From assembly GCF_003367905.1 (NCBI RefSeq), contig NZ_CP029462.1:1302001-1366000 (forward strand): a DNA stretch of 64,000 nucleotides. The letters run 5' to 3'. Positions 34,173-49,938 of this stretch are shown here, piece by piece. Position 1 is the stretch's first letter, and every line of letters begins with the position of its first letter. The DNA comes from Megasphaera stantonii (GTDB lineage Bacteria > Bacillota > Negativicutes > Veillonellales > Megasphaeraceae). The notes beneath the pieces are model-generated. The model was not told the DNA's origin and did not search any database. It was given only the letters and a program-made list of their open reading frames with translations. The translations under genes and the position numbers were made by a program.

Positions 34173-35456
34173 TTATTCCTTCATTCTCCTTCGCATGCGG
34201 CTGTTGGGGATATTCATTTTAAATCGAAATTTCGTAATCGTCCGCCGTGCCACGTGCACGGACTGCTGGCTGAAGTAATCGGCTAAATCCTGATCAGACC
34301 AGGGACGCCGACAGTCTTCTTCCGCAATAAGCCGCGCCATTTTCTCCATGATAGCCTTGTCGGAAATACTGCCGTCCCGCTCCCTATCGCAGCGGTAATG
34401 GTGGGCCAAAAAAGACTGAATTGGATAGATGCGGCCGCGAAACAAGGCGTAGCGGTCGCGGCAGACGCGGCTCACCGTCGCCGCGCTGAGCCCTGTCGCC
34501 GCAGCGATGTCTTTTTGAGTCAAAGGACGCAGGCTGCCGCCATGGAGGAAATGTTCGCCCTGTTCCTTTACTATATGCTCCACGACTGTAAAAATTGACT
34601 GGCGGCGGTACGCCAGGGCTGTCTGTAAATCCAAAAACTGCCGCTTGGCCTTGCGGATAAAATCCTGCGTCGCCTTATCGCCGTCCTTACCATAAGCCGT
34701 ATACAAATCGTCGCGGAAAAATACATCCGGCAGGTCTTCCAGAGACCGCACCGTCAGATGTCCCTCTTCATCGCAGAGGATTTCTATATCAGCCCGCACG
34801 AATTCCGTCCGCTCGTCGGCCGGCGCGACCGGCTGCAGGGCCAGCTTCTTCAAAAAGCGCCGGATTCGTCCCAGCCCTTCCGGCGACAAGCCCATTTGTT
34901 CTTCCAGCCGCTTCCAATGGCCGCGGATGAAATCGTCGTAATGGTTCAGCAGCAGCTCTTCCGCCCCTGCCGGCGCGTCCTTCCGGCGGCGCGTCTGAAT
35001 CAGCAAGGCTTCCTGTATCGTCCGCGCGCCGACGCCCGGCGGGTCGAAGGTTTGGACCAGGCGCAGCCCCTCTTCCATATCGGCGACAGACAAGCCGTAG
35101 TCGACGCCGATGTCCTCTAACGCGGCGGCGAAAAATCCTTTCTCGTCGAGGGACTGGATGACCAGCCCGGCGGCCAGCATCACCTTTTTGGAAACGGCCT
35201 GGACGCGGAGCTCTTTCATGAGCTTTTCCTCCAGCGAGTCGCCGCCGCTGCGGATATTGTCGATAGGCTTTTCCATACCTCCGCCAGATCTAGGCCGCAC
35301 GTCAGGGTAGCGAATATCCAGCAGGGGATTTTCCGTTACCTTTTCGTGAAGAAATTCCACCAAATCCTGTCCCCGCAGGGTCATCATCTGAATGGTCAGG
35401 CGCTGCATCTGCGATAATTTAATCTTTTGCTCTAACGTTAACGCGATTTTTGCCAT
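34173..35456 (-). CDS. rpoN: RNA polymerase sigma-54 factor
   Basis: 427 aa; ATG 35456 is six bases after gagggg. N-terminal region I is LTLEQKIKLSQMQRLTIQMMTL, core-binding region II includes TFDPPGVGARTIQEALLIQ, and the C-terminal RpoN box reads ARRTITKFRFKMNIPNSRMRR, a divergent form of ARRTVAKYREMLNIPSSSERR. It directs transcription from -24/-12 promoters with an enhancer-binding ATPase; none is encoded in the window. Slightly shorter than most homologues (about 450-480). Confidence 0.92.
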   Translation of the reverse strand: MAKIALTLEQKIKLSQMQRLTIQMMTLRGQDLVEFLHEKVTENPLLDIRYPDVRPRSGGGMEKPIDNIRSGGDSLEEKLMKELRVQAVSKKVMLAAGLVIQSLDEKGFFAAALEDIGVDYGLSVADMEEGLRLVQTFDPPGVGARTIQEALLIQTRRRKDAPAGAEELLLNHYDDFIRGHWKRLEEQMGLSPEGLGRIRRFLKKLALQPVAPADERTEFVRADIEILCDEEGHLTVRSLEDLPDVFFRDDLYTAYGKDGDKATQDFIRKAKRQFLDLQTALAYRRQSIFTVVEHIVKEQGEHFLHGGSLRPLTQKDIAAATGLSAATVSRVCRDRYALFRGRIYPIQSFLAHHYRCDRERDGSISDKAIMEKMARLIAEEDCRRPWSDQDLADYFSQQSVHVARRTITKFRFKMNIPNSRMRRRMKE

Positions 35457-35506
35457 ACTCATCCCCTCGCATCGATGCGCCCGCTGCAGGCGCGCTGCAA
35501 ATCAGC

Positions 35507-37096
35507 CTAAGGCCGCAGCTGCATCCGCCCCTGCGGCGCGGCGTATTCCGTCCCGATCCGCCCCTGCAGCTCGTCCTGAATGTAGTGGACGATGGCTTCG
35601 GCGTCGGTATAGCCGACATACTTCGTCTCGGCCCTTCCCGCCTCGGCCAGTGCGCTGTAGGCGTCGCCGCCGCGGCTGATGAATTCATACGTGGCGATCG
35701 TATATACCGCGTCGGGAGAAAAGGCCCTGCCGCCGACGGAATGAATCGTCACGCGCTGCCCGGGCTTTGCCGGCTTGTAATATTTCCCATTTCCATAGGC
35801 CGGTCCCTTCGCGAAAGGGATATCCGTACGAACCGTCATTTCGATGCCCGAAACCTGAGGAAAGGCCCCCGCCGGATAGGGAGCCGCCGCCGTCGCCGCT
35901 TCCATGATTTCCAGCAAGGTTTGGCCGGTCATAGTCACGACGCACACCTGATTTCGGTATGGCAGCACGCTTTGGATACCTCCCTGCGTGACTACTCCAG
36001 CCGGAATAGAAGCGCGCAGGCCGCCGCCATTTACGACAGCGCCGTCGATACTCGTTCCTTCTGCGGCCGTCGCCATGCGGGCTTGCCACAAGACGGCATC
36101 GGCAATAAAGTCGCCTAAGTTCGTTTCTTCCATCCGCACCTTAGGCCGGCTGCCGTCCAGCATGATATCTGCCGTGCCGATAGGCCGGGATAATTCGGCC
36201 TGTACGTCGGCCGCCGCCTTGTCGACTAAGGCCTTGACGGCCTCGTCTTCCTTGGCAAAGGCGCCGTAGGGAAGGTTCTGTTCCTGCCATTGGCCGTCCG
36301 CATAGGAAACGACGCCGATGTTGGCTAAATGGCTGCCTGTCGCCGCCAGCAGCACGCCGTCGACGCGGTAGTTCTTCACGCGGTGGTCGTGGCCGTCGAT
36401 AAAGAGATCGATGCCCCGCACGCGGCGCAGGATGTCGTCAGATCGATGGCCCTCGCTGATCGGCTCGCTGCCCACATGCCCCAGAGCCACGATGAGATCG
36501 CAGCCAGCGCCGCGCAGATAATCCACGTTAGATTGCACGGCATCATACAAATCCTGTCCGTCTAAAAAGGTCAGGCCGTATACGTGTTTCGGATTCGTCG
36601 CCCCCGCTGTTTCCGGCGTCGTGATGCCGATGATGCCGACGGTTACGCCGCCTTTTTTAACGATCGTATAAGGTCGGACGAAGGGCTTTCCCGTCGCGTC
36701 GACGAGGATATTGCAGGAGAGGAAGGGAAAGTCCGCTTCCGCTGCCCGTTCGAGGGTTACGTCCTGGCCGTAGTCGAATTCGTGATTTCCCAGCGTCATG
36801 GCGTCGTAGCCTGCAGCGTTCATAAAGGCGATAGCCGTCGCGCCCTGACTCAGATTAACTAAATTATGGTCCTGTATGGCGTCGCCGGCGTCGACGAGAA
36901 GCACGTCCTTGCCCTTCGCCTCGTACTCCTGTTTCAGCGCCGCTACGGCTGCCATGCCGTACACGCCGTCGGCCTTCTGGTCGTAGCCGTGGGTGTCATT
37001 GGTATGAATGACGACGAGATTGGAAAAGTCCGCCGCCCCGATGACCTGGAAGACCGCTATCGACAGGGCCAGGGCCAGCCAAAGAATTTTTCTCAT
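35507..37096 (-). CDS. Secreted 5'-nucleotidase / UshA-like metallophosphatase
   Basis: 529 aa with a signal peptide (about 1-21, hydrophobic, ending IGA-AD). The N-terminal metallophosphoesterase domain shows all metal ligands: HTNDTHG, DAGDAIQ, GNHEFDYG, ALGHVG and GHDHR. The C-terminal 5_nucleotid_C domain has NGGGLRASIPAG. It probably releases nucleosides and phosphate from nucleotides outside the membrane. Transcribed alone, 50 bp upstream of rpoN. Confidence 0.93.
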   Translation of the reverse strand: MRKILWLALALSIAVFQVIGAADFSNLVVIHTNDTHGYDQKADGVYGMAAVAALKQEYEAKGKDVLLVDAGDAIQDHNLVNLSQGATAIAFMNAAGYDAMTLGNHEFDYGQDVTLERAAEADFPFLSCNILVDATGKPFVRPYTIVKKGGVTVGIIGITTPETAGATNPKHVYGLTFLDGQDLYDAVQSNVDYLRGAGCDLIVALGHVGSEPISEGHRSDDILRRVRGIDLFIDGHDHRVKNYRVDGVLLAATGSHLANIGVVSYADGQWQEQNLPYGAFAKEDEAVKALVDKAAADVQAELSRPIGTADIMLDGSRPKVRMEETNLGDFIADAVLWQARMATAAEGTSIDGAVVNGGGLRASIPAGVVTQGGIQSVLPYRNQVCVVTMTGQTLLEIMEAATAAAPYPAGAFPQVSGIEMTVRTDIPFAKGPAYGNGKYYKPAKPGQRVTIHSVGGRAFSPDAVYTIATYEFISRGGDAYSALAEAGRAETKYVGYTDAEAIVHYIQDELQGRIGTEYAAPQGRMQLRP

Positions 37097-37183
37097 ATAT
37101 ACGCTCCATTTCTCAAAATTTGTCTTTATTATAGCATATATGCTGTCATTCCCCTATAGCAGCTGGAGTGAACGATCGGGCGC

Positions 37184-37222
37184 GAAAAAATATCCCGGGA
37201 GCTCGCAGAGAACTCTCGGGAT
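37184..37222 (-). terminator. Terminator of the hydF/nif-like/hyp cluster
   Basis: Minus-strand stem atcccgagag / ctcccgggat followed by atttttt. Confidence 0.8.
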
Positions 37223-37230
37223 GTTTTGCG

Positions 37231-38430
37231 TTATTTCACCAAGGCCGCCAAATGGGGGAACGGCCCCAGGGATCGTTTTAAGATGCCCTTCATGTAGGCG
37301 ATGGCGATGCCGTAGTTAGTCATCGGCACGCCTTGCCGACCGGCGAACTTCATACGCCACTGCACTTCCCGCTCGTTGAGCATGCAGGCACCGCAGTGAA
37401 TGACCATGGCGTACGGCGACAGGTCTTCGGGAAATTCCCGGCCGCTGCAGGTCTGGATGGCAATATCCTTTCCCGTGTGCGCCCTGAGCCAACGGGGAAT
37501 TTTCACCGTGCCGATGTCGTCGCACTGGCGGTGGTGGGTGCAGCCTTCAGCCACGAGAACCGTATCGCCGTCCTTTAATCCTTCGATAGCCGTCACGCCT
37601 TGCACGGCGTCCCGGAGAAACCCCTTATGACGGGCCATGAGGATGGAAAAGGACGTCAACGTCATTTCGTCCGACACGACGGCGGCGACTTCGCCGAAGA
37701 CCTGGCTGTCCGTCACGACCATGCGCGGGGCCTTGCCCAGTTCTTCCAGCGTCTTCGACAGGGCGTTTTCCTTGACGACAACGGCCGTACAGCCAGCGTC
37801 GAGGATTTCCCGGATGGTCTGCTGCTGCGGCAGGATGAGCCGGCCCTTCGGAGCCGCCGTATCAATCGGCACGACGAGGACGACGAAGTCGCCGGCCGTC
37901 AGCAAGTCGCCGATAATCGGCGTGTCCTCGCCGACGGGCTTCAGGCGGGCCATCCGTTCTTTTAATTCAAAGATGCCGTCCTTCGTGACGGCGCTGACGT
38001 ATATGTCATGGTCTCCGGCCTGCGGGCAGGCTGCCAGCAGGTCTTTTTTATTGTACACCGTAATATAGGGTATGTTCTTTTCTTTAAATAAGGCCAGCAG
38101 GTCTTCGTCGCATCCCTTCAGGCCTTCCGTCCCGTCGACGACAAGGACGGCGATGTCCGTCTTGTTGAGAACCTGCTTCGTCCGCTGGACGCGCATTTCC
38201 CCCAAAGCGCCTTCATCGTCGAAGCCCGGCGTGTCGATGATCATGACCGGCCCTAAAGGCAGCAGCTCCATAGCCTTGTAGACCGGGTCCGTCGTCGTGC
38301 CCTTCGTATCAGACACGATGGCCAGATTCTGGCCCGTCACGGCGTTGACCACGCTGGACTTGCCGGCGTTGCGGCGGCCGAAAAAGCCGATATGGACCCG
38401 TTCACCCGACGGCGTATCATTCATAGACAT
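37231..38430 (-). CDS. hydF: FeFe-hydrogenase maturation GTPase HydF
   Basis: 399 aa, RBS gaggggga. HydF is the scaffold on which the diiron subcluster of the H-cluster is finished and handed to HydA. GTPase motifs: GRRNAGKSS (18-26), G2 TKGTTTDPV, DTPGFDD (66-72) and NKKD (127-130). The C-terminal cluster-binding cysteines are C297 (EGCTHH), C346 and C349 (HCGAC), all present. It is the last gene of the 12-gene cluster. HydE and HydG, its usual partners, are not in the window. Confidence 0.96.
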   Translation of the reverse strand: MSMNDTPSGERVHIGFFGRRNAGKSSVVNAVTGQNLAIVSDTKGTTTDPVYKAMELLPLGPVMIIDTPGFDDEGALGEMRVQRTKQVLNKTDIAVLVVDGTEGLKGCDEDLLALFKEKNIPYITVYNKKDLLAACPQAGDHDIYVSAVTKDGIFELKERMARLKPVGEDTPIIGDLLTAGDFVVLVVPIDTAAPKGRLILPQQQTIREILDAGCTAVVVKENALSKTLEELGKAPRMVVTDSQVFGEVAAVVSDEMTLTSFSILMARHKGFLRDAVQGVTAIEGLKDGDTVLVAEGCTHHRQCDDIGTVKIPRWLRAHTGKDIAIQTCSGREFPEDLSPYAMVIHCGACMLNEREVQWRMKFAGRQGVPMTNYGIAIAYMKGILKRSLGPFPHLAALVK

Positions 38431-38453
38431 GGCGATTCCCCCTCTTATACCGT

Positions 38454-39695
38454 CTAAACCAAGGCGGCGAAATCATTGATCTTTTTGACAAAGGATTCGA
38501 ACTCATCGATCAGATTCGGGATGACCTTTTGGTACAGCCGCCCGGAAAAGGCCGTATGGCCCAAGCCGACGAAATGAGCGCTTGCCGGAATGACAGGCCC
38601 GTACAAGGGATCGGCGATGACCGTCCCCGTCCAGTCCGCCAAGCGGCGGCGCAGCTCGCCTTCGGAAGAAACAAAGACGTCTTCTTGTCCCAAAACGCCT
38701 GGCCACTCGTTCAGCAGGCAGTACACCTTCGCCGTCCGGCCTTCCCGTCCGAGAGCGGCCGCCAGAGACGCCGAATAGACGCTTTCGCCGATGATAATCG
38801 TATCGGCTTCGCTGCAATCGGCCCGGCTGTCGGCGCAAACGTAGATATCTTCCTTCATTTCTGCGGCGCGGCGCAGTCCCCGGGCGATTTCTTCCTGCAT
38901 ATAAGGGCCGATGGGAACGCCGACGACATAGGGTATGCCGAAGCGCTTCTTCATCACCTTGGCCCCTTCGACAGCGCCGGCCGACACGACGAGGTTCACG
39001 TCGGCCAGGCCGGCCATTTCGATTTCTTCCAGCGGGCTTCCCATAGCCCAGACGCTGTGCGGGGAAAAGCCGCTGCGGCGCAGAAACCGCTTCATCGACT
39101 TTTCGCTGCCGTTATAGGAAAAATCGAGAGGCGTTGCGCCGATGACGTTGACCCGCAGCGGTTTAGCCGATGTTCCCGCACCGCCGCAGGCTGCAAATTC
39201 AGGCTGCCACGAGCAGCACATAGGCCCGGCCGGCGCCGGCGCAGGTACGTCCTTTACGATTCGTTCGGCCAGCATGTTCATGGCCCAGGCGATGCCCTTG
39301 TCGTACAGATTCATATTATTCGTCGTCGCAGCCATCGTCATGATGCCCGTCTGTTCTTCAATCAGCGCCGCCAGGGCGTCCATATCGGCCCCCGTCATGA
39401 GCGGCACAGGCGTGCACAGGATGACGATGAATTTCGGTGAAAAATCGCGGGCCGCCGACACGACGTCGTGGACGAACTTGTCATCGTTGCCCATGATGGC
39501 GTCCATTTCGGTGACGCCGGAGATGAAGATGAGGCTGTCCTGGTCGTACCAGCGCGGCTCGTCGTGGGTCGCATACGTCGAGTTGCAGCCCGACGGGTCG
39601 TGAATGACCACCATGCCTCTGAGCTCATACAGGGACGAGCAGACGCCGAAGGTGTCGGCAGAGTACGTCGATATACGGCTTACGGCTTCTTTCAT
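38454..39695 (-). CDS. NifK-like nitrogenase component 1 homologue, module 2
   Basis: 413 aa. Start 39695 (MKEAVSR) overlaps the preceding stop as ATGA and aligns residue for residue with the start of the module 1 paralogue; ATGs at 39701 and 39716 are less likely. It shares GMVVIHDPSGCNSTY...DEPRW and TPVPLMTGAD with the nitrogenase component 1 fold. Cysteines at 19, 37 and 94 are spaced much like the three P-cluster ligands of NifK, so it may bind a bridging Fe-S cluster with its D-like partner. Shorter than NifK (about 520). Substrate unknown. Confidence 0.82.
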   Translation of the reverse strand: MKEAVSRISTYSADTFGVCSSLYELRGMVVIHDPSGCNSTYATHDEPRWYDQDSLIFISGVTEMDAIMGNDDKFVHDVVSAARDFSPKFIVILCTPVPLMTGADMDALAALIEEQTGIMTMAATTNNMNLYDKGIAWAMNMLAERIVKDVPAPAPAGPMCCSWQPEFAACGGAGTSAKPLRVNVIGATPLDFSYNGSEKSMKRFLRRSGFSPHSVWAMGSPLEEIEMAGLADVNLVVSAGAVEGAKVMKKRFGIPYVVGVPIGPYMQEEIARGLRRAAEMKEDIYVCADSRADCSEADTIIIGESVYSASLAAALGREGRTAKVYCLLNEWPGVLGQEDVFVSSEGELRRRLADWTGTVIADPLYGPVIPASAHFVGLGHTAFSGRLYQKVIPNLIDEFESFVKKINDFAALV

Positions 39696-41023
39696 ACACA
39701 TGACCGGCACCCCCATCCTTTCAGGTTAATCGATTCGCGGGCTTCCTTTTCCGTCTGGAAAGCCTCGGTCATCCAGTCCAGCAGCGTCCGAATGCCGCGG
39801 AAATCGCGGAGGCCGCCGTTTTCCGCCATATCGACGAAATGGGCCGTCCCCGTAAAATAGGCCGCCTTTTGTCCTATAGCCAGCATAGGCACGTCTGTAT
39901 GGCGGTCTATGCGGCGCATCTTGGCGTGGCGCATGGAATACAGCTCCAGATCAGGATAGTGCTCCTGTACCCAGAAGAAATCGTCGCCGTCTTCGCCGCT
40001 TACGCCGTCCGTATAGACGCGCCGGACGGCAAAGCCGTGCTGCAACAAGGTCTTCGCCAAGCTAAAGGGCCGGAACACAGCGGCGCTGTCAATGGCGACG
40101 GGCATAGAGCCGATGATGTCCCTGGCCGCTGCAAAGGCCTGCTCGCACTGCTCCACTTCTCTGTCATAAGACTGCCGCGGCAGCTGAAGGGCGTCGGCGA
40201 CGGCGTGGAGATTGGCGATGATTTCGTCGTAGCCGAAGCTGTTGGAAAGATACAGCCCTTTTTGTCCTAATTCCCGTTCCATATCTTCCAAGGGGCCGCG
40301 GGCGTAGGGCTCCTGACCGATATTCAATATGCTTTCGGCCATTTTTTCATAATCTTCATAGGTCTTGCAGACCGGCAGTTCCCGCAGGATAAAACCGTTC
40401 TGCTTCAGCAGCAGCGCCAGCTCGCAGTCCTGGGGCACGGCGAGATTGCTGCCGACGATGTTGACCGATTTAGGATTGATGGGGCCCTTTTCCAGCAGGC
40501 TGTACAACTGCCGCCGCGTCCGCATTTCCGCCGTCAAATCGGAATGGCGGCGGATAGGGTCCATCCAGCAGGCGACGAAGCGCGTCTGCGGATAGGCCTC
40601 TTCCAGGCGGCGGTATACGTCGTCCATATCGCAGCCCATGAAATGATGAATGCAGGCCGGATAGATAAAGCAGGCCGTCGGCACCTGAGGCAGCAGCCCC
40701 TGCAGGATTTCGCCGACGCCGTCGACGATACAGTCTTCCATGGTGCCGTCATATAAATGATGCTCTTCGACGACGATGGAGGAAAAGCGGTCCATCGCCC
40801 CCATTTCGGCCGCCGTCAGGACGACGCCGCGCAGGCAGCCGAGAGCGCAGATATAGATTTGATGAGAACCGGGAACGAGCATGTTCGTGTGGACGATGTT
40901 CCATGTCCCCCGGGCCGGCGGCGTGTACTGAAGGCCGTCGTAAAAGATGCCGGGAAATACGGCGTCCTTTATGGCCACGCAGGCACCCGACGTGTCTTCC
41001 CGTCCGTCAATTCGTTTCAGCAT
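39692..41023 (-). CDS. NifD-like nitrogenase component 1 homologue, module 2
   Basis: 443 aa. Nitrogenase component 1 fold with ICALGCLRGVVL (C59, C63), YPACIHHFMGCD (C124, C131), FVACWM (C152) and QDCELALLL (C200). Cysteines 63, 124, 152 and 200 are conserved in the module 1 paralogue (72, 132, 159, 207). C63 and C124 correspond in position to P-cluster ligands of NifD. The C-terminus has two further cysteines (WGCRSCV). Presumed alpha-type subunit fed by the NifH-like protein just upstream; the reduced substrate is not known. Confidence 0.82.
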   Translation of the reverse strand: MLKRIDGREDTSGACVAIKDAVFPGIFYDGLQYTPPARGTWNIVHTNMLVPGSHQIYICALGCLRGVVLTAAEMGAMDRFSSIVVEEHHLYDGTMEDCIVDGVGEILQGLLPQVPTACFIYPACIHHFMGCDMDDVYRRLEEAYPQTRFVACWMDPIRRHSDLTAEMRTRRQLYSLLEKGPINPKSVNIVGSNLAVPQDCELALLLKQNGFILRELPVCKTYEDYEKMAESILNIGQEPYARGPLEDMERELGQKGLYLSNSFGYDEIIANLHAVADALQLPRQSYDREVEQCEQAFAAARDIIGSMPVAIDSAAVFRPFSLAKTLLQHGFAVRRVYTDGVSGEDGDDFFWVQEHYPDLELYSMRHAKMRRIDRHTDVPMLAIGQKAAYFTGTAHFVDMAENGGLRDFRGIRTLLDWMTEAFQTEKEARESINLKGWGCRSCV

Positions 41024-41027
41024 CGTA

Positions 41028-41783
41028 TCACCCCTTTGCTGCCGCCAGGACAGCGTCGGCCAAGGCGCGGTACTGGCCGGCCATGGGGCTGTCCGGAAAG
41101 GCTTCGACGACGGTCTTTCCCAGCTCTTCCGCCTGAGACACGATGTCGCTCCGGTCGAGGGTCCCGACGACGGCCGAATGGATGTCGCCGGCCAGCTCCC
41201 GTACCTTTTCCTCTTCGTTCTTTACGCTGCGGCGGTTCAGGATAAGGCCGCCCAGGCGAGCGTAGCCCCGACCCTTAAAGGATTCAACGGCCATGGCGAT
41301 GTTGGCCGCCGCATGGATGGCCATGTTTTCTCCCGACGTGACGATGAATACGGCGTCGGCATAGCCCTTGTGCATGGGCATGGCGAAGCCGCCGCAGACG
41401 ACGTCGCCCAGGACGTCGTAGAAAATGACATCGGGCTGATATACCTCGTAAGCCCCCTTTGCCTTGAGCAGATCCAGGGCGGCGATGATGCCCCGGCCAG
41501 CGCAGCCCCGGCCCGGAGCAGGGCCGCCGGCTTCTACGCAGACGACGCCGCCGTAGCCGGCGACGGTCATCTCGTCTAAGGAAACATCCCGGCCCTTTTC
41601 CCGCATGAGGTCGAGAACTGTAGGAATCGCCGCGCCGCCGTGAAGGCCCGCCGTCGAGTCGGCCTTCGGGTCGCAGCCGATCTGCATGACCTTCAGGCCC
41701 CGTTCCGCCAGGGCCGCCGCCATGTTGGAGACCGTCGTCGACTTGCCGATGCCGCCCTTTCCATATACAGCAATTTTTATCAT
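41028..41783 (-). CDS. NifH-like reductase ATPase, module 2
   Basis: 251 aa. Homodimeric Fe protein type: P-loop GKGGIGKST (8-16), switch region CDPKADST (37-44), and the two [4Fe-4S] ligand cysteines C94 (GCAGRGI) and C130 (VVCGGFAMP). These pass low-potential electrons to a component 1 partner with ATP hydrolysis. Shorter than NifH (about 275-295), as in NifH-like proteins of non-fixing systems. Separated from hypE by 20 bp and from its D-like partner by 4 bp. Confidence 0.93.
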
Positions 41784-41803
41784 AGGTTACATCCTCCGTC
41801 TTC

Positions 41804-42808
41804 TCAGCAAATGCGGGGCAGCAATTCGCCGCCCGGCGGCGGCAGCAGCGTTTCCGCGCCGATTTCCGTGCGGACGACGACCCGTCCCGGCCGCTCTGCC
41901 GTCACTTCGCCGATAATCGCCGCTTCGCCGGAGTATTTCCCCTGCCGCAGCGTTTCCACGATGGCCGGAGCCTTATCCTTCGGCGCGAAGATGACCAGAC
42001 GGCCTTCGCAGGCCAGATACAGGGGCTCTAAGCCCAGCATGCCGCAGACGCCGCGGACCGACGGGGCGACGGGGATAGCCGCTCCGTCCAGTCGGATGCC
42101 GACGCCGCTCTGGGCAGCAATTTCGTGGAGGACCGTACCGACGCCGCCGCGGGTCGCATCGCGGATGACGTGAATGTCCTTCGTCGTTTCCAGCATGGAC
42201 TGCACGGTCCCCCACAAGGGAGCGCAGTCGCTGGTTACGTCGGCGTCGATGCCGAACTGGCTGCGGGCCAGTAAAATCGTGCAGCCGTGACGGCCGATAT
42301 CGCCGCTGACGATGACGGCGTCGCCGGGCCGGGCCAGGGCGCCCGACAAATGAACGCCTTCCGTCGCCAGGCCGATACCCGTCGTCGTAATGAACAGGCC
42401 GTCGACCTGTCCCTTGCCGGCTACCTTCGTATCGCCGGCGACGATGCGCACGCCCGCCTCGGCCGCCGTCTCGGCCATGGCCGCAGCGTACGCTTCCACC
42501 TTCGCCAAGGGAAAGCCTTCTTCCAGGACGAAGGCGCAGGTCATATACAGGGGCTTCGCGCCCATGCAGGCCAGGTCGTTGACGGTGCCGCAGATGCTGA
42601 GCTTGCCGATGTTGCCGCCGGGAAACTCAGGAGGCGACACGATGAACCCGTCCGTCGTAAAAGCCAGGTTTGCGCCGCCGACGGACAAGAGAGCCGCGTC
42701 GTCGGCCGTAAATTCAGGATTAGAAAAATGAGCTTTAAATACCGTATCGATTAATTCCGCCGTCTGTTTGCCGCCGCTTCCATGGGCCAGCGTCACTACG
42801 TCATTCAT
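41804..42808 (-). CDS. hypE: Hydrogenase maturation protein HypE
   Basis: 334 aa; ATG 42808 after tggaggcggaaatc, overlapping the end of hypD. HypE dehydrates the thiocarboxamide made by HypF to thiocyanate, the source of the CN- ligands. AIR-synthase fold with LAHGSGGK at the start and the required C-terminal cysteine in PRIC. Complete. Confidence 0.97.
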   Translation of the reverse strand: MNDVVTLAHGSGGKQTAELIDTVFKAHFSNPEFTADDAALLSVGGANLAFTTDGFIVSPPEFPGGNIGKLSICGTVNDLACMGAKPLYMTCAFVLEEGFPLAKVEAYAAAMAETAAEAGVRIVAGDTKVAGKGQVDGLFITTTGIGLATEGVHLSGALARPGDAVIVSGDIGRHGCTILLARSQFGIDADVTSDCAPLWGTVQSMLETTKDIHVIRDATRGGVGTVLHEIAAQSGVGIRLDGAAIPVAPSVRGVCGMLGLEPLYLACEGRLVIFAPKDKAPAIVETLRQGKYSGEAAIIGEVTAERPGRVVVRTEIGAETLLPPPGGELLPRIC

Positions 42809-43862
42809 GATTTCCGCCTCCATATTGATAATAGGCCGAGCAGGCTCCTTCGTGCGATACCATGCAGGCCCCTACGGGATGGTCCGGCGTGCAGCCCCTG
42901 CCGAATACAGGGCACTGCGGCGGCGTGCAGATTCCCTGCAGGACTTCGCCGCAGCGGCAGGCCGGATTAGACCGCCCATGCATAGGCGGCACGCCGTATT
43001 TCTGCCGCGCGTCATAAGCCGCATACCGCTGCTGCAGCCGCTGGCCCGACATCGGAATCACGCCGAGGCCCCGCCATTCCGAATCGCAGGGCTCCATGAC
43101 CTCCGCCATGAGCCGCTGGCCCGGCAAGCTGCCTTCTGCCGTGACGACGCGGGGATAGCAGTTTTTGAAAAAGGGCTTTCCCTGAGGAAATTTCGCCAAG
43201 ATGACGGCAAAGGCCGTCAAGAGTTCTTTCGCCGTAAATCCGGCAACGACGCCGGAAATCCCCTGCTCCGCCAGTCCTTCGCAGTGCTTCGTCCCCATGA
43301 CGGCTTCGACATGTCCCGGATAGAGGAATACGTCGGCGCTGTTCTTGAGAGCCTCGTAGGCCTGGGGCATCGTCTTGTTCGCCGTTAAGATAGAAAAATT
43401 AGTCAATTCTTGTTCCGCTGCCTCTTTGACAGCCAGACAGGCTGCCGGCGTCGTCGTTTCAAAGCCGACGGACAGGAATACGACCTGTTCATCCCGATGA
43501 GCCGCCGCATAGCTGCAGGCATCGACAGGCGAATAGACGATTTCTACCCTCGCCCCCTGACTGCGGGCTGTGGCCAGGCTGCCTTCCGAGCCGGGCACGC
43601 GGACCAGGTCGCCGAAGGTACAGATCGTAACGCCTCGTTCCAGCGCCAGCCAGATCGCTTCGTCAATGAAGCTGACCGGCGTCACGCAGACCGGGCAGCC
43701 CGGCCCGGAAATGAGCGTGACCTCCTTGGGCAGAATCTGCCGCAGGCCTAAGCGGAATATTTCGTGCGTATGGGTCCCGCAGACTTCCATGATGCGCACC
43801 GGCGGCCCATCGTAACTTTTAATGATGTCCAGGGCCGATTTTTTCTTTCCATCTGCCATCAT
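42801..43862 (-). CDS. hypD: Hydrogenase maturation protein HypD
   Basis: 353 aa. With HypC it assembles the Fe(CN)2CO unit. Conserved CGTHTHE (28-34), GPGCPVC (about 53-59), GFETTTPA, and the C-terminal cysteine-rich [4Fe-4S] region from CRCGEVLQGIC to GACSAYY. The start overlaps the hypC stop (ATGATG). Confidence 0.97.
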   Translation of the reverse strand: MMADGKKKSALDIIKSYDGPPVRIMEVCGTHTHEIFRLGLRQILPKEVTLISGPGCPVCVTPVSFIDEAIWLALERGVTICTFGDLVRVPGSEGSLATARSQGARVEIVYSPVDACSYAAAHRDEQVVFLSVGFETTTPAACLAVKEAAEQELTNFSILTANKTMPQAYEALKNSADVFLYPGHVEAVMGTKHCEGLAEQGISGVVAGFTAKELLTAFAVILAKFPQGKPFFKNCYPRVVTAEGSLPGQRLMAEVMEPCDSEWRGLGVIPMSGQRLQQRYAAYDARQKYGVPPMHGRSNPACRCGEVLQGICTPPQCPVFGRGCTPDHPVGACMVSHEGACSAYYQYGGGNHE

Positions 43863-44065
43863 AAGTCCTCCAGGATATCGTCCATTTCATGATCGTCCGT
43901 ATCGGTAATCTTGGCGATAGCCATGCCGGCATGGACCATGACGTAATCGCCCGGGTCCAACTCGTCAATGAGCTCGGCCGACACGGCGCGCCGCGCGCCG
44001 GACGCGTCGACTAAGGCCATGCCGTCCTTTATCGTAACCACTCGCGCTGGTAATCCTACACACAT
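43859..44065 (-). CDS. hypC: Hydrogenase maturation chaperone HypC
   Basis: 68 aa starting MCVGLPARVV, with the essential Cys2. Small OB-fold chaperone that carries the Fe(CN)2CO unit with HypD and, in NiFe systems, delivers it to the large subunit. The acidic C-terminal tail is common in the family. Confidence 0.96.
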   Translation of the reverse strand: MCVGLPARVVTIKDGMALVDASGARRAVSAELIDELDPGDYVMVHAGMAIAKITDTDDHEMDDILEDL

Positions 44066-44083
44066 CGTAATTCCTCCTTCAAT

Positions 44084-46375
44084 CTATTGCAGATGGTACA
44101 TGCCGTACAAAGCCTGCCCTAAGGCCAGTCCGCCGTCGTTCGGCGGCACGAGGCGATGACGCAGTACCGTAAATCCATCTCGTTCCAAGGCCCGGCAGCA
44201 CAGGCGCAGGAGCAACGTATTCTGAAAGACGCCGCCGCTCAGGGCCACGGCATTCCGTCCCGTCTCTTCGCGAGCCTGCCGGGCCGCCGCCAGCACCATG
44301 CCGGCTAATCCCCTATGAAAGGCATAGGCCTCCCTGCCGGCGTCGCCGTGCTTTACATACGACTGGACGCATCCGTCGAAGACGCGCTGCGTCGCCAGGA
44401 CGTATCGATCGGAAAGCCGTTCCAACGGGCCGGGGACGACAGCCTCTTCTCCGTGGGTTTGCTCCCACGCTTCAGCGGCAAACTGGAGGGCCATGGCCCC
44501 CTGTCCTTCAAAGGTCGACTGTCGGCACAGGCCCAGGGCGGCGCTGAGGCCGTCAAAGAGGCGTCCGGCGCTGGTCGACATGACCGTGTTGACACCGTTG
44601 TCAGCTAGGAAAAACTGGGCCTGCAATTCTTCCCGGCTGCAGAGACGGAGCTTTTCAGCCAGAGCCGCCGTTTGTTCCTTATTCCGTCCCGTATTGTCGT
44701 ACAGCAGGCTTACGGCAATGCGCCAGCCCTCGCGGGACGCTGCGTCGCCGCCGACATGATGGAAGGGCGCGACGGAAGCAAAGCGGCTGTAACCGTGCAC
44801 GTCGGCCAAAAGCACTTCGCCGCCCCAAATCGTGCCGTCGCCGCCGTAGCCCGTGCCGTCAAAGGAAACGCCGATGACCGGCTCGAGGTAATTGTTCTCG
44901 GCCATGCACGACAAGACGTGGGCGTAATGATGCTGTACCTTCAGGACCGGCAATCCCAATTCCTCAGCAACGGCGACGGAATTGTACTGCCGATGCGTAT
45001 CGCAGACGACGGCCGACGGCGTCGCTTCTAGGAGCGATTCCATGCGCTCCACCGATTCGCGCAGGGCGTCGACGGTCCGCGCGTCGCTCAGATCGCCGAT
45101 GTACGGCGACAGGTAATATAAATTGCCTTTGGCAAGGCAGAATGTATTTTTCAGTTCGCCGCCGACAGCCAGCACCTGCTTTCCCTCGTCGGGGCCGACG
45201 AAAAAGGGCAGGGGCGCGTAGCCGCGGGAACGGCGTATCATATACGGTTCGCCATCGAAAAAGTCCATGACCGAATCGTCGGCCCGCAGGCGTATGCGGC
45301 GGTTATGCGACAATACGGCGTCGCACAGGGACGACAATTCCTTGTTCGCGTCGTCGTCGGTCCGGCAAATCGGCGCACCCGATTCGTTGGCGCTGGTCAT
45401 GACCAGGCAATCAGGCATGGCGACGCCGTCGTCGTACGTAAACAGCAGGAGCTGCAGGGGCGCATAGGGAAGCATGACGCCGACCTTGGGATTGCCCGGC
45501 GCAATAGACGGGCACAGCCGTCCGCCCTCCTTTCTGCGCAGCAACAGAATCGGCTTCTGGCATCCGTCCAGTATCTCCGCTTCGCCGGCTTCGACGACGC
45601 ATTCGCGCCGGACGACGTCCATATCGCGCATCATGACGGCCAGGGGCTTGACGGGGCGGTGCTTCGACTGGCGCAGGCGGCGCACAGCGTCTTCGTTCCC
45701 GGCATCGCAGCACAGATGAAAGCCGCCGATGCCCTTGACGGCGACGATGCCGCCGCCTGCGATGATGCGCCGGGCCTCCGTAATGGCCTCCCTGCGCCGT
45801 TCCGTCCGGCCCAGCAGATACACTTCGGGGCCGCAGTCGTTGCAGCACACCGGCTGGGCGTCGTAGCGCCGCGTTTCGGCGTGGGTGTATTCGTATTCGC
45901 AGGCCGGGCACATGGGAAAGGCGCCCATGCTGGTCCGTTCCCGGTCATAGGGCATGGCGTCGAGAATCGTCAGGCGCGGCCCGCAGGCCGTGCAGTTGAT
46001 GAAGGGATGGAGATAGCGCCGGTCCGACGGGTCGAAGAGCTCGGCCTTGCAGGCGTCGCAGACAGCGATATCGGGAGAGACGAAGATATGACCTTCTTCC
46101 CTGGCGCTTTCTACGATGTCAAAGGATGAATAGGACTTCGGCTCTGCCGCCGACCGGTCGATGTTCAAGATAGCCGACCGCTCCGGAGCCAATTCCGGCA
46201 AGTCGCGGCAGAAGGCCTCTACGGCGTCGTCCGCTCCCTGAGCGACGATTTCTACATACGAGCCCTTATTGCAGACCGTGCCGCCCAAGCCGTGCTTCGC
46301 CGCCAGACGGCTCACGAAGGGCCGGAAGCCTACGCCCTGGACGATGCCGAACACGCAGATCCGTTCCGTCTTCAT
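44084..46375 (-). CDS. hypF: Carbamoyltransferase HypF
   Basis: 763 aa. Uses carbamoyl phosphate and ATP to carbamoylate the HypE C-terminal cysteine, first step of CN- synthesis. N-terminal acylphosphatase domain (GIVQGVGFRPFV, 9-20), two zinc-finger pairs (CDACKAEL, CTACGP, CPACEYEY, CNDCGP), a YrdC-like domain (GGIVAVKGIGGFHLCCDA) and the C-terminal Kae1-like domain (VQHHYAHVLSCMAEN, GVSFDGTGYGGDGTIWGGE). Length is typical. Confidence 0.97.
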   Translation of the reverse strand: MKTERICVFGIVQGVGFRPFVSRLAAKHGLGGTVCNKGSYVEIVAQGADDAVEAFCRDLPELAPERSAILNIDRSAAEPKSYSSFDIVESAREEGHIFVSPDIAVCDACKAELFDPSDRRYLHPFINCTACGPRLTILDAMPYDRERTSMGAFPMCPACEYEYTHAETRRYDAQPVCCNDCGPEVYLLGRTERRREAITEARRIIAGGGIVAVKGIGGFHLCCDAGNEDAVRRLRQSKHRPVKPLAVMMRDMDVVRRECVVEAGEAEILDGCQKPILLLRRKEGGRLCPSIAPGNPKVGVMLPYAPLQLLLFTYDDGVAMPDCLVMTSANESGAPICRTDDDANKELSSLCDAVLSHNRRIRLRADDSVMDFFDGEPYMIRRSRGYAPLPFFVGPDEGKQVLAVGGELKNTFCLAKGNLYYLSPYIGDLSDARTVDALRESVERMESLLEATPSAVVCDTHRQYNSVAVAEELGLPVLKVQHHYAHVLSCMAENNYLEPVIGVSFDGTGYGGDGTIWGGEVLLADVHGYSRFASVAPFHHVGGDAASREGWRIAVSLLYDNTGRNKEQTAALAEKLRLCSREELQAQFFLADNGVNTVMSTSAGRLFDGLSAALGLCRQSTFEGQGAMALQFAAEAWEQTHGEEAVVPGPLERLSDRYVLATQRVFDGCVQSYVKHGDAGREAYAFHRGLAGMVLAAARQAREETGRNAVALSGGVFQNTLLLRLCCRALERDGFTVLRHRLVPPNDGGLALGQALYGMYHLQ

Positions 46376-46378
46376 GGC

Positions 46379-47410
46379 TCATTCCCTCCCCGATACGGCA
46401 AAATGAGGAAAATCTATATAGATGCCCCGGAAATGGGGCAGGGCTTTCTTAAAATACAGGTCGCCGATGACGATATCAAAGGCGTCGTTATCGGCCAGGC
46501 TGCGGAAATCGTCTTCTTCTTTCAGCAGGATGTCTCCTTCGCGGCGGCATTCCTGGGGCTCCATAAACCACGACGCGACGGTGACGGCCTTCGCCCCCCG
46601 CCGTTCCGCCAGCTCCCGCATGGCGTTGGCCGCCGTCTGCTGGTGAACGACGAGGACCGACGCGCCGGAAAGGTCGAGCCCCTCCGGCAGCACCGATTCC
46701 AAACCGAAATAACGAAATTCGTAGGGCGTGCCGAAGGTTTCTTTCAGGTACTTCGCACTCCGAAGGCCCGACGGCGACACGACGATGTTGCGGCTGACCT
46801 TGCCGGCCTGGGCAAATTCGCCGAAGGTATCGTACAGCCATACCTGCCGCCAGCCCTCTTCCCGAAGGGCGCCGACGATGCCTTCCCTGTCGCAGGGATG
46901 CATGAGGTCCAAGGGGACGGCGCCGATGACGCCGACGATGCCGTCTTCAGCCTGCATAGACAAGTCGGCAAAGGCCCTGAACAGCGTATCATACGCTTTT
47001 TCAATGCCTGCGTCGTACAGCTCCATGCCCGTCGTATCCAGCGTGACGACTGGGATAGACAGTTCCTTCTCAGCCATGCGCTTCAAAGCCCGGTAATCCG
47101 TGCCGATGACCGACGGCACGGGCGTACCGACGATGGCGGCGAAGGAGGCGTCGATTTGCCGGGCCGCGTCGGCCAATTTCGCCACCAGGCGGTCGTCGCG
47201 GCCCAAGATGGCGTCCATATCGCGCAGGCCGGCGCTGAATACGGCGCTCTTGCCGCCGCTGAACCAGCGCGGCTCGTCAAAGCCGCAGATATTGCCGGCG
47301 CAGCCGCCGGCGTCGCAGATGACGACGATGCCGTTCAATCCGTACATCACCGCCGCCGCTCCGGACTGGTCCGGCGCAAAGGGCGATATATATTTCCAAA
47401 GACCTTTCAT
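46379..47410 (-). CDS. NifK-like nitrogenase component 1 homologue, module 1
   Basis: 343 aa; ATG 47410 overlaps the preceding stop and follows gggaggtcggcccg. Homologous to the module 2 NifK-like protein (shared DEPRW, TPVP, ELYD and the invariant C37), but 70 residues shorter and with a different cysteine set: C32, C37 and C42 (ICDAGGCAGNIC), while C19 and C94 of the paralogue are A19 and G94. This suggests a different metal cluster. Presumed beta-type subunit with the D-like gene upstream. Confidence 0.8.
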   Translation of the reverse strand: MKGLWKYISPFAPDQSGAAAVMYGLNGIVVICDAGGCAGNICGFDEPRWFSGGKSAVFSAGLRDMDAILGRDDRLVAKLADAARQIDASFAAIVGTPVPSVIGTDYRALKRMAEKELSIPVVTLDTTGMELYDAGIEKAYDTLFRAFADLSMQAEDGIVGVIGAVPLDLMHPCDREGIVGALREEGWRQVWLYDTFGEFAQAGKVSRNIVVSPSGLRSAKYLKETFGTPYEFRYFGLESVLPEGLDLSGASVLVVHQQTAANAMRELAERRGAKAVTVASWFMEPQECRREGDILLKEEDDFRSLADNDAFDIVIGDLYFKKALPHFRGIYIDFPHFAVSGRE

Positions 47411-48711
47411 CGGGCCGACCTCCCTTCCAATGCCGCCGAAATCTGGCGCAGCAGCTCCCGCAGCCCGTCGTATCCGAAGGGCTGAATCTCTTCGTCCCAA
47501 AAGACATGGGCCGCATCGTCGTGATAATAGGCCGCGTCCTTGCCGATCGTCAGCTCGACGGGATGGTCCCCGCCTTCGTAATACAGCATCGACGGCGACA
47601 AATTAGAGTATACCTCCGTGTCGGGGCTTAGCGCTTCCAAGCGGCGGATATAGGCGAAATCATAGGGCGACACGCTGGCGTAAATCTCCTTGACCACAAA
47701 GCCGTACTGCGTCAGAGCCAGAGCCATTTCAAAGGCGTTGCCGTTCTGCATTTCCCCGACAGCGATAGTCGTACCGCCGTACCGCTTCGCCGCTTCCGCC
47801 GCGTCGGCCGCCGCTTCGTCATACCATACCGTATCGTCTGCGGCCCCGCCTAAGGCGCCGGCAAAAGCCTGGTACTGGCTGCGAATCTTGTCGATCTGGT
47901 ACAGCCGCGTCAGCTCGATGCTGGGAATGCCCAGCCGCTTTTCCATATCCTGGGCGGCCAGCCGCGCCTCGGGATGGAGGATGACGTTGAAATTGGCCTT
48001 GGACATGGCCTTATATTCGGCGAAATCGCGGCAGCGGGAAATCTCGTTTATCCGGCGGATGCCCAGCTGGCGCAGGACGCCGTAGAGCTCGCACGTATCG
48101 CGGAGCGGCGCAAAATGCCCTAATATATTGACGGTACGGCTGTCGCGGTCGTCCCTTTCGAGAAGGGAGTAAATGGCCCGGCGCACGTCGACCATAGGAG
48201 GCTTGCGGCCTTCGCGGGTCAGGGCGTACATATAGCAGGGCACGACGGGCAGGCCCACCTTAGCCTCGGCCTTGCGGCACACCCGTTCCATGTCGGTGCC
48301 CAGCAGGGCGTCGACGCAGGTCATGCAGATCATGACGACAGTCGGCTCCTGGGGCAGTGCTTCGACGACTTCCGCCACGGCCTGGGGAATTTTTCGCAGA
48401 TGGCGTCCCGTCACGATATCCGTTTCATCCATGATGTAGTAGAAAAACCTGTCGCTGTAGCCGCCCATTTCGCTCAATATCGTCGTGTTGCGGCCGCAGC
48501 ATCCCGGGCCGACGAGCAGCATGACCGAGCCGGGAATGGCCAGGCCGGCCCGCTTGACGCCGAAGCCCTGGGCTCCGGGAGAGTTAAAGGCCAGTGCCGC
48601 CGGCGAATTGTAAATGAGGTGAGCCGACGACACGAGGTCCGACGGAATATCGCCGCGGCCCCGCCGGGCCAGCTCCCTGACAGTAATCGCATAGGGTTTT
48701 CGTTGTGTCAT
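47407..48711 (-). CDS. NifD-like nitrogenase component 1 homologue, module 1
   Basis: 434 aa; ATG 48711 overlaps the NifH-like stop. Component 1 fold with [11 protein letters not shown] (C71, C72), [14 protein letters not shown] (C129, C132), VVPCYM (C159) and RDTCELYG (C207). A GPxxCxxR motif and a second Cys about 60 residues later recall the NifD P-cluster ligands C88 and C154, but the first NifD ligand has no equivalent. Probably alpha subunit of a reductase complex; substrate unknown. Confidence 0.82.
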
Positions 48712-49472
48712 ATCGCAGTATCCTTGTCTTTCCATAATGTCTGCGCCAGCTGGATGAACACCTGGCTGATGGGCAGCTCCGGATTGCCCTCGACGACGGT
48801 CTTGCCTTCTTCCTCAAAGCGGTTTATGTCGTCGCTGCGGGGAATATCGCCGACGATTGCCAGGCCCCGTTCCGCCGCGAAGGCCCGGACCTTTTCTTCT
48901 TCTCCCGGCACGTTGCGGCGGTTCAGGATGATGCCCTTGACCTTTGCATAGCTGCGGTCGGCGAAATTCTTGACGGCCGTGTTGATGTTGTTCGCCGCAT
49001 AGAGGGCCATCTTTTCACCCGACGTGACGATGAGGACCTGAGCGGCATAGCCCTCGCGGATCGGCGCGGCAAAGCCGCCGCAGACGACGTCGCCCAGCAC
49101 GTCGTACAGCACGACGTCGGGCTCGTACTGTTCAAACAATCCCATGTCTTCCAATAAGTCAAAGGTCGCGATGATGCCCCGGCCGGCACAGCCCAGGCCC
49201 GGCGTCGGGCCTCCCGTTTCGATGCACAGGACGCCGCCGTAGCCGACGCGAGAAATCTCTTCGATAGCCTGCGGGTCGTCGTCGTGCTCGCGCAGGTAAT
49301 TCATGACCGGCTCGAGCAGCTCGCCGCCCAGCAGGTTCAGCGTCGAATCGGCCTTGGGGTCGCAGCCGATTTGTATGACTTTCTTTCCCAAATAGGCGAA
49401 GGCCGCCGCCAGGTTGCTGGTCATAGTCGACTTGCCGATGCCGCCCTTTCCGTAAATCGCAAGTTTCAGCAT
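48708..49472 (-). CDS. NifH-like reductase ATPase, module 1
   Basis: 254 aa. P-loop GKGGIGKST (8-16), CDPKADST (37-44), [4Fe-4S] ligands C95 (GCAGRGI) and C131 (VVCGGFAAP). Close paralogue of the module 2 protein. Follows the TM1266-type regulator by 4 bp, so translation is probably coupled. Confidence 0.93.
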
Positions 49473-49476
49473 GGTC

Positions 49477-49734
49477 TCACCTCTGCTGCGGCAGCGGCGG
49501 GTAGATCGTCTTCGTGCTCACGTCGGGAAGCATGCCGAGCTTTCCCGACAAGGCGCTGATCGTATCCTGCGGCGCGTCGATAATAATGCTGATGACGTTG
49601 ATATCCTTATCCTTATACGGAATACCCATGCGACCGACGATATACTGTCCGTATTCGTGAAGGAGCTCGTTGAGCTTCGTCGTCTCGTCCCGCTTGCCTA
49701 CGATGATTCCGATAAGGGCTAATCTCGTTTCCAT
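49477..49734 (-). CDS. TM1266-type iron-only hydrogenase system regulator
   Basis: 85 aa; ATG 49734 has a strong RBS (aaaaggaggaagact). The in-frame extension to 49878 runs through a leader structure and is rejected. ACT/ferredoxin-like fold of the TM1266 family: [20 protein letters not shown], then [13 protein letters not shown] and VISIIIDAP. Members sit beside hydE/hydG/hydF in many anaerobes and are thought to regulate FeFe-hydrogenase systems. Here it opens the nif-like/hyp/hydF cluster. Confidence 0.9.
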
Positions 49735-49756
49735 AGTCTTCCTCCTTTTGTATAAA

Positions 49757-49903
49757 CAAAAAGGCTCTGTGCGAAAACACAGAGCCTCGTAGCTTTCCAC
49801 TATACGTGCTTTCGCCTCGCCTGCGCAGAATCTCTTCTTTGCAGATAAGTACGGCTGCATGCCTATGACGTTTTCCATCAGAAGTCCTTCTGGAGCACGT
49901 GTT
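49757..49903 (-). promoter_or_regulatory. Structured 5' leader with intrinsic terminator (candidate riboswitch)
   Basis: About 170 nt lie between the predicted transcript start (~49903) and the TM1266 ATG. A 7-bp helix acgtgct (49900-49894) / agcacgt (49810-49804) closes a domain of ~97 nt with internal hairpins (agaag/cttct near 49885; gatg/cgtc near 49875). Then comes a perfect 9-bp terminator stem ggctctgtg/cacagagcc (49786-49763) with a U-tract, ending just before the RBS. The layout is that of a transcription-attenuating riboswitch. I could not assign it to a known class (no cobalamin, TPP, FMN or THF consensus seen). Confidence 0.6.
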
Positions 49904-49909
49904 TTATTT

Positions 49910-49938
49910 ATTATAGCAAAAAACGAGGGAAATGTATA
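49910..49938 (-). promoter_or_regulatory. Promoter of the nif-like/hyp/hydF cluster
   Basis: Perfect TATAAT (49915-49910) with a 17-bp spacer to a weak TATACA (49938-49933). Confidence 0.6.

Follow-up and report, generated by a model that had tools for sequence, protein, structure and literature searches.

What task could bring together, in one bacterial gene cluster, nitrogenase-like proteins, the Hyp proteins known from [NiFe] hydrogenase maturation, and HydF, the scaffold GTPase on which the H-cluster of [FeFe] hydrogenase is assembled? The question is raised by a 64,000-nucleotide stretch of the genome of Megasphaera stantonii (contig NZ_CP029462.1, positions 1,302,001 to 1,366,000), here called the window, to whose numbering coordinates refer. 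Between positions 37231 and 49734, the minus strand carries twelve genes, which run TM1266, H1, D1, K1, hypF, hypC, hypD, hypE, H2, D2, K2, and hydF, where H stands for NifH-like proteins and D and K for nitrogenase component 1-like subunits. This order, described in an earlier sequence-only reading of the locus, is confirmed by family searches and coordinates, as is the tight spacing claimed there (overlap or gaps within 25 bp): adjacent genes overlap or are separated by at most 23 bases.

HydG is lacking from many [FeFe]-hydrogenase producers among gut and gas-fermenting bacteria, which have this cluster instead; it is very probably a second, as yet undescribed, means of building the [FeFe] active site. 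Comparison of genomes makes it likely, and we hold with good confidence, that it replaces HydG in H-cluster assembly, because HydG is almost always absent where the cluster occurs, the gene order is conserved, HydA, HydE, and HydF are kept, and the HypD and HypE proteins of the cluster form separate clades. No published description of such a system was found in a literature search that covered no preprints and few subscription journals.

HydG, a radical S-adenosylmethionine tyrosine lyase, is the enzyme described as supplying the H-cluster with its CO and CN. It generates CO and CN- from tyrosine and builds an Fe(CO)2(CN) synthon, which HydE turns into a diiron unit; HydF and the lipoyl H-protein then add the bridge (PMC13360658; this and the other papers given by PMC number are cited from excerpts). 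When the synthetic precursor [Fe2(SH)2(CO)4(CN)2]2- is supplied, HydF alone is required (PMC13360658). The system studied here is like HydE-HydF-HydG maturation in its target, HydA, in the presence of HydE and HydF in most carriers, and in including the hydrogenase-system gene TM1266. It is unlike it in lacking HydG, which supplies CO, CN, and the iron synthon, and in having hyp and nitrogenase-like genes instead.

Distribution of the Cluster and of HydG

The M. stantonii genome, a single contig of 2.65 Mb, contains three matches to HydA (PF02906) with H-cluster motifs. Scores of 528 and 501 bits take two of them over the cut-off of TIGR02512 (group A), and one of these also exceeds the A6 model (884 bits). 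HydE is present as well (322 bits, cut-off 255). HydG was not found in the genome, where the HydG model matches only ThiH (198 bits, cut-off 312) and HydE; that the model overlooked a HydG is ruled out by its scores of at least 848 bits in all 28 genomes of another family (f4). The third HydA match (L081:6780-8024, minus strand, 414 amino acids) is group B-like, falls under the group B1 cut-off, and has H-cluster-type motifs.

A search for D1 across 380 Negativicutes genomes gave 44 matches at E 1e-20. Of these, 39 were strong, coming from 16 members of the window's own family (f1, 17 genomes in all) and 23 members of another Negativicutes family (f24). Carriers were defined by a match at E 2e-70 or better; the weaker matches in G075, G079, G153, and G364, genomes that all have HydG, were attributed to other nitrogenase-like proteins, and G321 was counted as a carrier despite broken frames. 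HydG (E 1e-90 or better) is found in 187 of the 380 genomes and in none of the 39 with D1, against a joint expectation of 19.2 genomes (hypergeometric P 4e-13; this and the following P values ignore relatedness). Maturase content was compared in a hand-picked panel of 80 Negativicutes genomes, mainly from f1 and f24, comprising 40 others and 40 carriers, one of which (G345, with only hypE-D2-K2 at a contig end) stands outside the 39. HydA is present in all 40 carriers and in 35 of the others, and among these HydA-positive genomes HydG occurs in 0/40 carriers versus 26/35 others (P 7e-13). Matches to HydF were obtained in 39 carriers (all except G285) and to HydE in 38 (all except G025 and G285), those of G015 being partial and under the cut-off for both proteins.

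The exclusion extends to the Clostridia. Scanning named genomes with the D1 alignment gave 503 relatives, of which the best 80 were taken; these 80 include Clostridium ljungdahlii, C. ragsdalei, C. carboxidivorans, C. drakei, Anaerobutyricum hallii, and Eubacterium ramulus. HydG was searched for in the genomes of 50 of the 69 Clostridia loci and exceeded its cut-off in two, leaving 48 without; it was not found in the carriers C. ljungdahlii, C. ragsdalei, and C. carboxidivorans. In 245 evenly sampled Clostridia, a set that is centred on and includes C. ljungdahlii and also has one other previously found carrier, HydG is present in 156 genomes and in none of the seven with strong D1 (P 7e-4); seven weaker D1-profile matches (E 3e-70 to 3e-37), three of them in genomes with HydG, were not counted as the cluster. 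The sequence-only reading had proposed, as a check, to test whether the cluster accompanies hydA and whether hydE and hydG are lacking. Co-occurrence with HydA is complete in the Negativicutes panel, and HydG is absent from 39/39 Negativicutes and 48/50 Clostridia carriers, whereas HydE is retained.

Gene order is conserved as well. The neighbourhood search proposed in that reading finds the order again in f1, f24, and the Clostridia: the exact run H1-D1-K1-hypF-hypC-hypD-hypE is present in 22 of 40 Negativicutes loci and 49 of 69 Clostridia loci, and Negativicutes loci without it show gene fusions, missing genes, frames that are split or broken, or an interruption by the contig end. TM1266 accompanies 25 of the 69 Clostridia loci. 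In 18 of them hydF lies in or beside the cluster, variously following hypE or K2, separating D1 from K1, or standing upstream of H2 and D2, and because it has been placed there repeatedly and independently it appears functionally tied to the cluster.

The link to HydA and the exclusion of HydG could also reflect shared ecology, the cluster making some other, undescribed Fe-CO/CN (or other) cofactor for a different enzyme. Hyp and nitrogenase-like proteins do feature in several cofactor pathways, and hydF stands apart from the cluster in the majority of f24 loci and in 51 of the 69 Clostridia loci, many of which are cut by contig ends. We nevertheless judge this explanation unlikely, given the recurrence of hydF and TM1266 in the cluster, the exclusion of HydG in two bacterial classes, and the gene content of G020, the sole f1 genome without D1 (89% complete), which is also without HydA, HydE, and HydF.

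Several observations weigh against the replacement of HydG by the cluster. Four genomes of genus g78 (G331, G333, G334, and G335; 90-99% complete) have HydA, HydE, and HydF and are without either HydG or the cluster; the latter is present in their sister genomes G329, G330, and G332. An unrelated nif-like pair is found in G333 and nif-like fragments in G335; the surroundings of hydE and hydF in G331 gave no candidate substitute. A third route or an inactive hydrogenase is possible in these four genomes. Five further panel genomes with HydA have neither HydG nor D1: G282 and G283, in which HydE and HydF are missing too; G288 (86% complete) and G322 (82%), each short of one further maturase; and G324, whose hydF lies near a contig end and in whose examined stretches no HydG fragment was found. 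The carrier G285 gave no HydE or HydF match, and two Clostridia, C. drakei (L129) and C. thailandense (L141), hold both HydG and the cluster, which makes them suitable for working out which hydrogenase each route serves. To these points are added the neglect of relatedness in the P values, the restriction of the HydA, HydE, and HydF counts to the Negativicutes panel, and the presence in M. stantonii of ThiH (498 bits to thiH), a relative of HydG.

ThiH might act as HydG, or HydA might be matured by free CO and CN, with the cluster merely adding cyanide or being auxiliary. Besides the ThiH gene of M. stantonii and the g78 genomes with HydE, HydF, and HydA and neither system, this explanation can draw on the activation of about 1% of HydA without HydG, a level doubled by added CO or CN- (cited in PMC9431212). 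Free ligands, however, leave the mutual exclusion of cluster and HydG unexplained, and ThiH-strength matches accompany true HydG in f4, so that ThiH is ruled out as a marker of HydG loss. We consider such maturation very unlikely to account for the data.

Replacement of HydG by the cluster would bear on a puzzle in acetogens. Of eight acetogenic Clostridium surveyed, all have HydE and HydF, three have HydG by motif (C. autoethanogenum, C. drakei, and C. scatologenes), and five have HypCDEF without HypA and HypB (PMC9431212). A divergent HydG, free CO/CN, and unknown ligand mechanisms were offered there as hypotheses; in the excerpts of that paper the two gaps are not linked and a nitrogenase-like cluster is not mentioned. 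Our search agrees on the HydG of C. drakei, C. autoethanogenum having been outside it. If the cluster replaces HydG, both the missing HydG and the HypCDEF sets without HypAB would be explained. C. carboxidivorans has two HypC/D/E sets and one HypF (PMC9431212), as would be expected if one of these sets belonged to the cluster. The [FeFe] hydrogenase of M. elsdenii is a studied enzyme (PMC13397568); the excerpted main text of a transposon paper on CO-grown C. autoethanogenum (PMC9004356) does not mention the cluster genes.

A Hyp Set Apart from That of [NiFe] Hydrogenase

Judged, like HydF and TM1266, by curated NCBIfam cut-offs, all of which are exceeded, the four Hyp proteins are clear members of their families: the carbamoyltransferase HypF (44084..46375, minus strand, as for all genes of the cluster; TIGR00143, 747 bits, cut-off 466), HypC (43859..44065; TIGR00074, 68.5 bits, cut-off 48), HypD (42801..43862; TIGR00075, 380 bits, cut-off 193), and HypE (41804..42823; TIGR02124, 408 bits, cut-off 252). 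Cys2 of HypC and the C-terminal Cys339 of HypE are kept. In [NiFe] hydrogenase, HypCDEF make the Fe(CN)2CO unit (PMC9431212). The [NiFe] large subunit (PF00374) has no match in the window's genome or in the 16 other f1 genomes. Service to a [NiFe] hydrogenase in f1 is rejected on this ground, and with 0/17 genomes having the large subunit, HypFCDE in this family are without a known customer.

In f24, 23 of 24 carriers have a [NiFe] large subunit, and the two kinds of Hyp protein can be compared. Near twelve f24 [NiFe] genes (from eight carriers and four HydG genomes) lie further copies of hypC and hypD in all 12 cases and of hypE in 11. These [NiFe]-linked HypC, HypD, and HypE proteins are 35-50% identical to those of the window, and the cluster copies of the same eight carriers, where read, are 63-76% identical to the window proteins. 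Trees of HypD (27 cluster-linked and 12 [NiFe]-linked sequences, the latter all from one family) and of HypE (26 and 11, likewise) each separate the two kinds by a single branch with 100/100 support, which places the window's HypD and HypE in cluster-specific clades. The conserved catalytic Cys residues of HypC, HypD, and HypE are kept in both kinds. Cluster HypD has His33 (27/27) and Cys142 (26/27) at positions where [NiFe]-linked HypD has Val and Ala (12/12).

The cluster is therefore like HypABCDEF maturation in its HypF, HypC, HypD, and HypE with catalytic Cys kept, and unlike it in the lack of a [NiFe] enzyme in f1, in HypD/HypE clades of its own with changed residues, in the absence of hypA and hypB from the cluster, and in the joining of hyp genes to nitrogenase-like genes and hydF. 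Neither hypA nor hypB is found in the cluster; no genome-wide search for either was made.

According to the sequence-only reading, the gene set would be a chance assembly if hydE, hydG, and a [NiFe] hydrogenase with hypA and hypB were encoded elsewhere in the genome and relatives did not share the order. HydG and the [NiFe] enzyme are both absent and the order is conserved, hypA and hypB having been outside the search. A historical assembly, in which the reductase of another pathway (of methylthio-alkane, F430, or chlorophyll type) came to stand beside leftover [NiFe] hyp genes, could appeal to the fold of the D and K proteins and their distant similarity to NifEN, NifD, and DPOR. Such a history is scarcely credible for an order kept across Negativicutes and Clostridia and for HypCDE proteins that are intact paralogues, apart from the [NiFe] set where both occur; chance assembly is rejected on the conservation of order.

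Nitrogenase-Like Proteins and a Possible Pathway

H1 (48708..49472; Fer4_NifH, 287 bits) and H2 (41028..41783; Fer4_NifH, 304 bits) match the Pfam model of NifH-like ATPases, and H1 has the P-loop and NifH-type Cys; both fall under the NCBIfam cut-offs for nifH, CfbC, bchL, and BchX. The four component 1-like subunits match Oxidored_nitro: D1 (47407..48735) with 126 bits, K1 (46379..47410) with 62, D2 (39692..41023) with 60, and K2 (38454..39716) with 97. They are the only four Oxidored_nitro matches in the whole genome, and nitrogen fixation is rejected for that reason. All four score far under every named NCBIfam subfamily (best nif score 75 bits, cut-off 505), D2 having no NCBIfam match at 1e-3. 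Their profiles match nitrogenase-type chains in the PDB, NifE included, and structural models of D1 and K2 (predicted local distance difference test scores 83.7 and 82.6) match the nitrogenase MoFe protein, NifEN, and, for K2, DPOR, at 10-20% identity.

Invariant Cys residues number four in D1 (79, 80, 137, and 140), two in D2 (63 and 124, with Cys59 nearly invariant), one in K1 (in GGCAGN; an EPR motif is also present), and one in K2 (Cys44). By analogy, this pattern is compatible with an Fe-S cluster at the D/K interface, as in NifEN. In profile alignments none of the four has Cys at the site of NifE 'NMMVCSKAM', whose Cys we take to be a cofactor ligand, and because of its absence a cofactor of the iron-molybdenum (FeMoco) type is not expected. 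NifH-like partners, D/K fold, and Cys pattern are thus shared with nitrogenase and NifEN, unlike the ligand-site Cys and the scores. DPOR (BchLNB), COR, CfbCD, and methylthio-alkane reductase are likewise two-component systems of NifH-like and D/K-like proteins for which a FeMoco-type cofactor is not expected; the cluster differs in scoring far under the BchB, BchN, BchY, and CfbD cut-offs, in its two D/K pairs, and in being embedded with hyp genes and hydF. No methylthio-alkane reductase model is among the NCBIfam matches.

What would such enzymes do for an H-cluster? The iron of the H-cluster needs more CO per CN than an Fe(CN)2CO unit. Retention of HydE and HydF after the loss of HydG would leave CO, CN, and a mononuclear synthon to be supplied, and a supply of cyanide by HypCDEF is plausible because these proteins build the Fe(CN)2CO unit for [NiFe] hydrogenase. 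The nitrogenase Fe protein by itself can reduce CO2 (PMC9571451), and CO2 capture by this protein has been described (PMC6747716). This activity, with the higher demand for CO, is why CO formation is proposed for the D/K pairs; CO formation and/or synthon reduction is, tentatively, their most likely task.

HypF and HypE would make cyanide from carbamoyl phosphate, and a dedicated HypC-HypD pair would hold the iron and take up the cyanide. D1K1 and D2K2, fed by H1 and H2, would carry out ATP-driven low-potential reductions, forming CO (e.g., from CO2) and/or reducing the Fe-CN/CO unit, and the synthon would go to HydE and next to HydF, which would complete and deliver the diiron unit as in the known route. 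Every chemical step, the source of CO, the division of labour between the D/K pairs, and the hand-over to HydE are what we infer. With somewhat less than even confidence, we propose that the two nitrogenase-like enzymes serve as an ATP-driven CO synthase (from CO2) and a synthon reductase feeding HydE, so that together with HypF/HypE cyanide and a specialised HypC-HypD they would constitute a second, independent Fe(CO)x(CN) biosynthesis.

Genome comparison, through the exclusion of HydG and the presence of HydA in 40/40 Negativicutes carriers, strongly supports the alternative H-cluster route put forward in the sequence-only reading, which joins Hyp, nitrogenase-like reductases, and HydF; HydE, whose absence was to be looked for, is present, and in other lineages hydF and H2 frequently lie apart from the cluster. 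From gene content, only HydG would be replaced and HydE retained (322 bits in this genome, 38/40 carriers), and the product more likely reaches HydE before HydF. If the cluster replaces HydG, it would assign a new function, perhaps the enzymatic synthesis of CO, to nitrogenase-like enzymes and provide a new gene set for making active [FeFe] hydrogenase; a second biosynthesis of the kind proposed would unite nitrogenase-type, [NiFe]-type, and [FeFe]-type assembly in one pathway.

Layout and Variants of the Locus

The cluster begins with TM1266 (49477..49734), a putative regulator of [FeFe] hydrogenase systems (TIGR03959, 118 bits, cut-off 61), and ends with hydF (37231..38430; TIGR03918, 563 bits, cut-off 326). 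The start of K1 is placed at about 47410, which gives a 4-base overlap with D1, and the listed TTG start at 47500 is an over-extension. The leader claimed upstream is borne out: a promoter-like site (49938-49910) and a leader RNA (49735..49938) with a terminator-like hairpin (49788-49761) precede TM1266. The terminator claimed downstream was not found 3' of hydF in 37000-37300. Among 13 distinct Megasphaeraceae upstream sequences, including that of the window, the leader is kept in sequence and predicted hairpins, ending in the terminator, and is a candidate riboswitch or attenuator of the cluster; an Rfam search of cluster and leader gave no fitting family. In one relative, L062, the conserved leader is not evident.

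Loci of f1 keep the twelve-gene set, with a frequent variant in which a NifH-like gene follows K2 and D2 and K2 are diverged (35-40% identity). Those of f24 have H2, TM1266, and hydF mostly outside the cluster. Five of them (L037, L041, L049, L050, and L071) have a D1 frame of about twice the usual length and no separate K1 frame, which suggests D1-K1 fusion proteins. In Clostridia loci, the H2-D2-K2 block either precedes or trails the other block. Two further loci lie on contigs binned outside these classes, L149 on one assigned to Atopobiaceae (Actinomycetota) and L148 on a 3 kb contig assigned to Synergistaceae; inter-phylum transfer and mis-binning are candidate explanations. Two genes downstream of hydF in the window, an open reading frame at 34173-35462 (minus strand) resembles what we take to be the sigma-54 factor RpoN.

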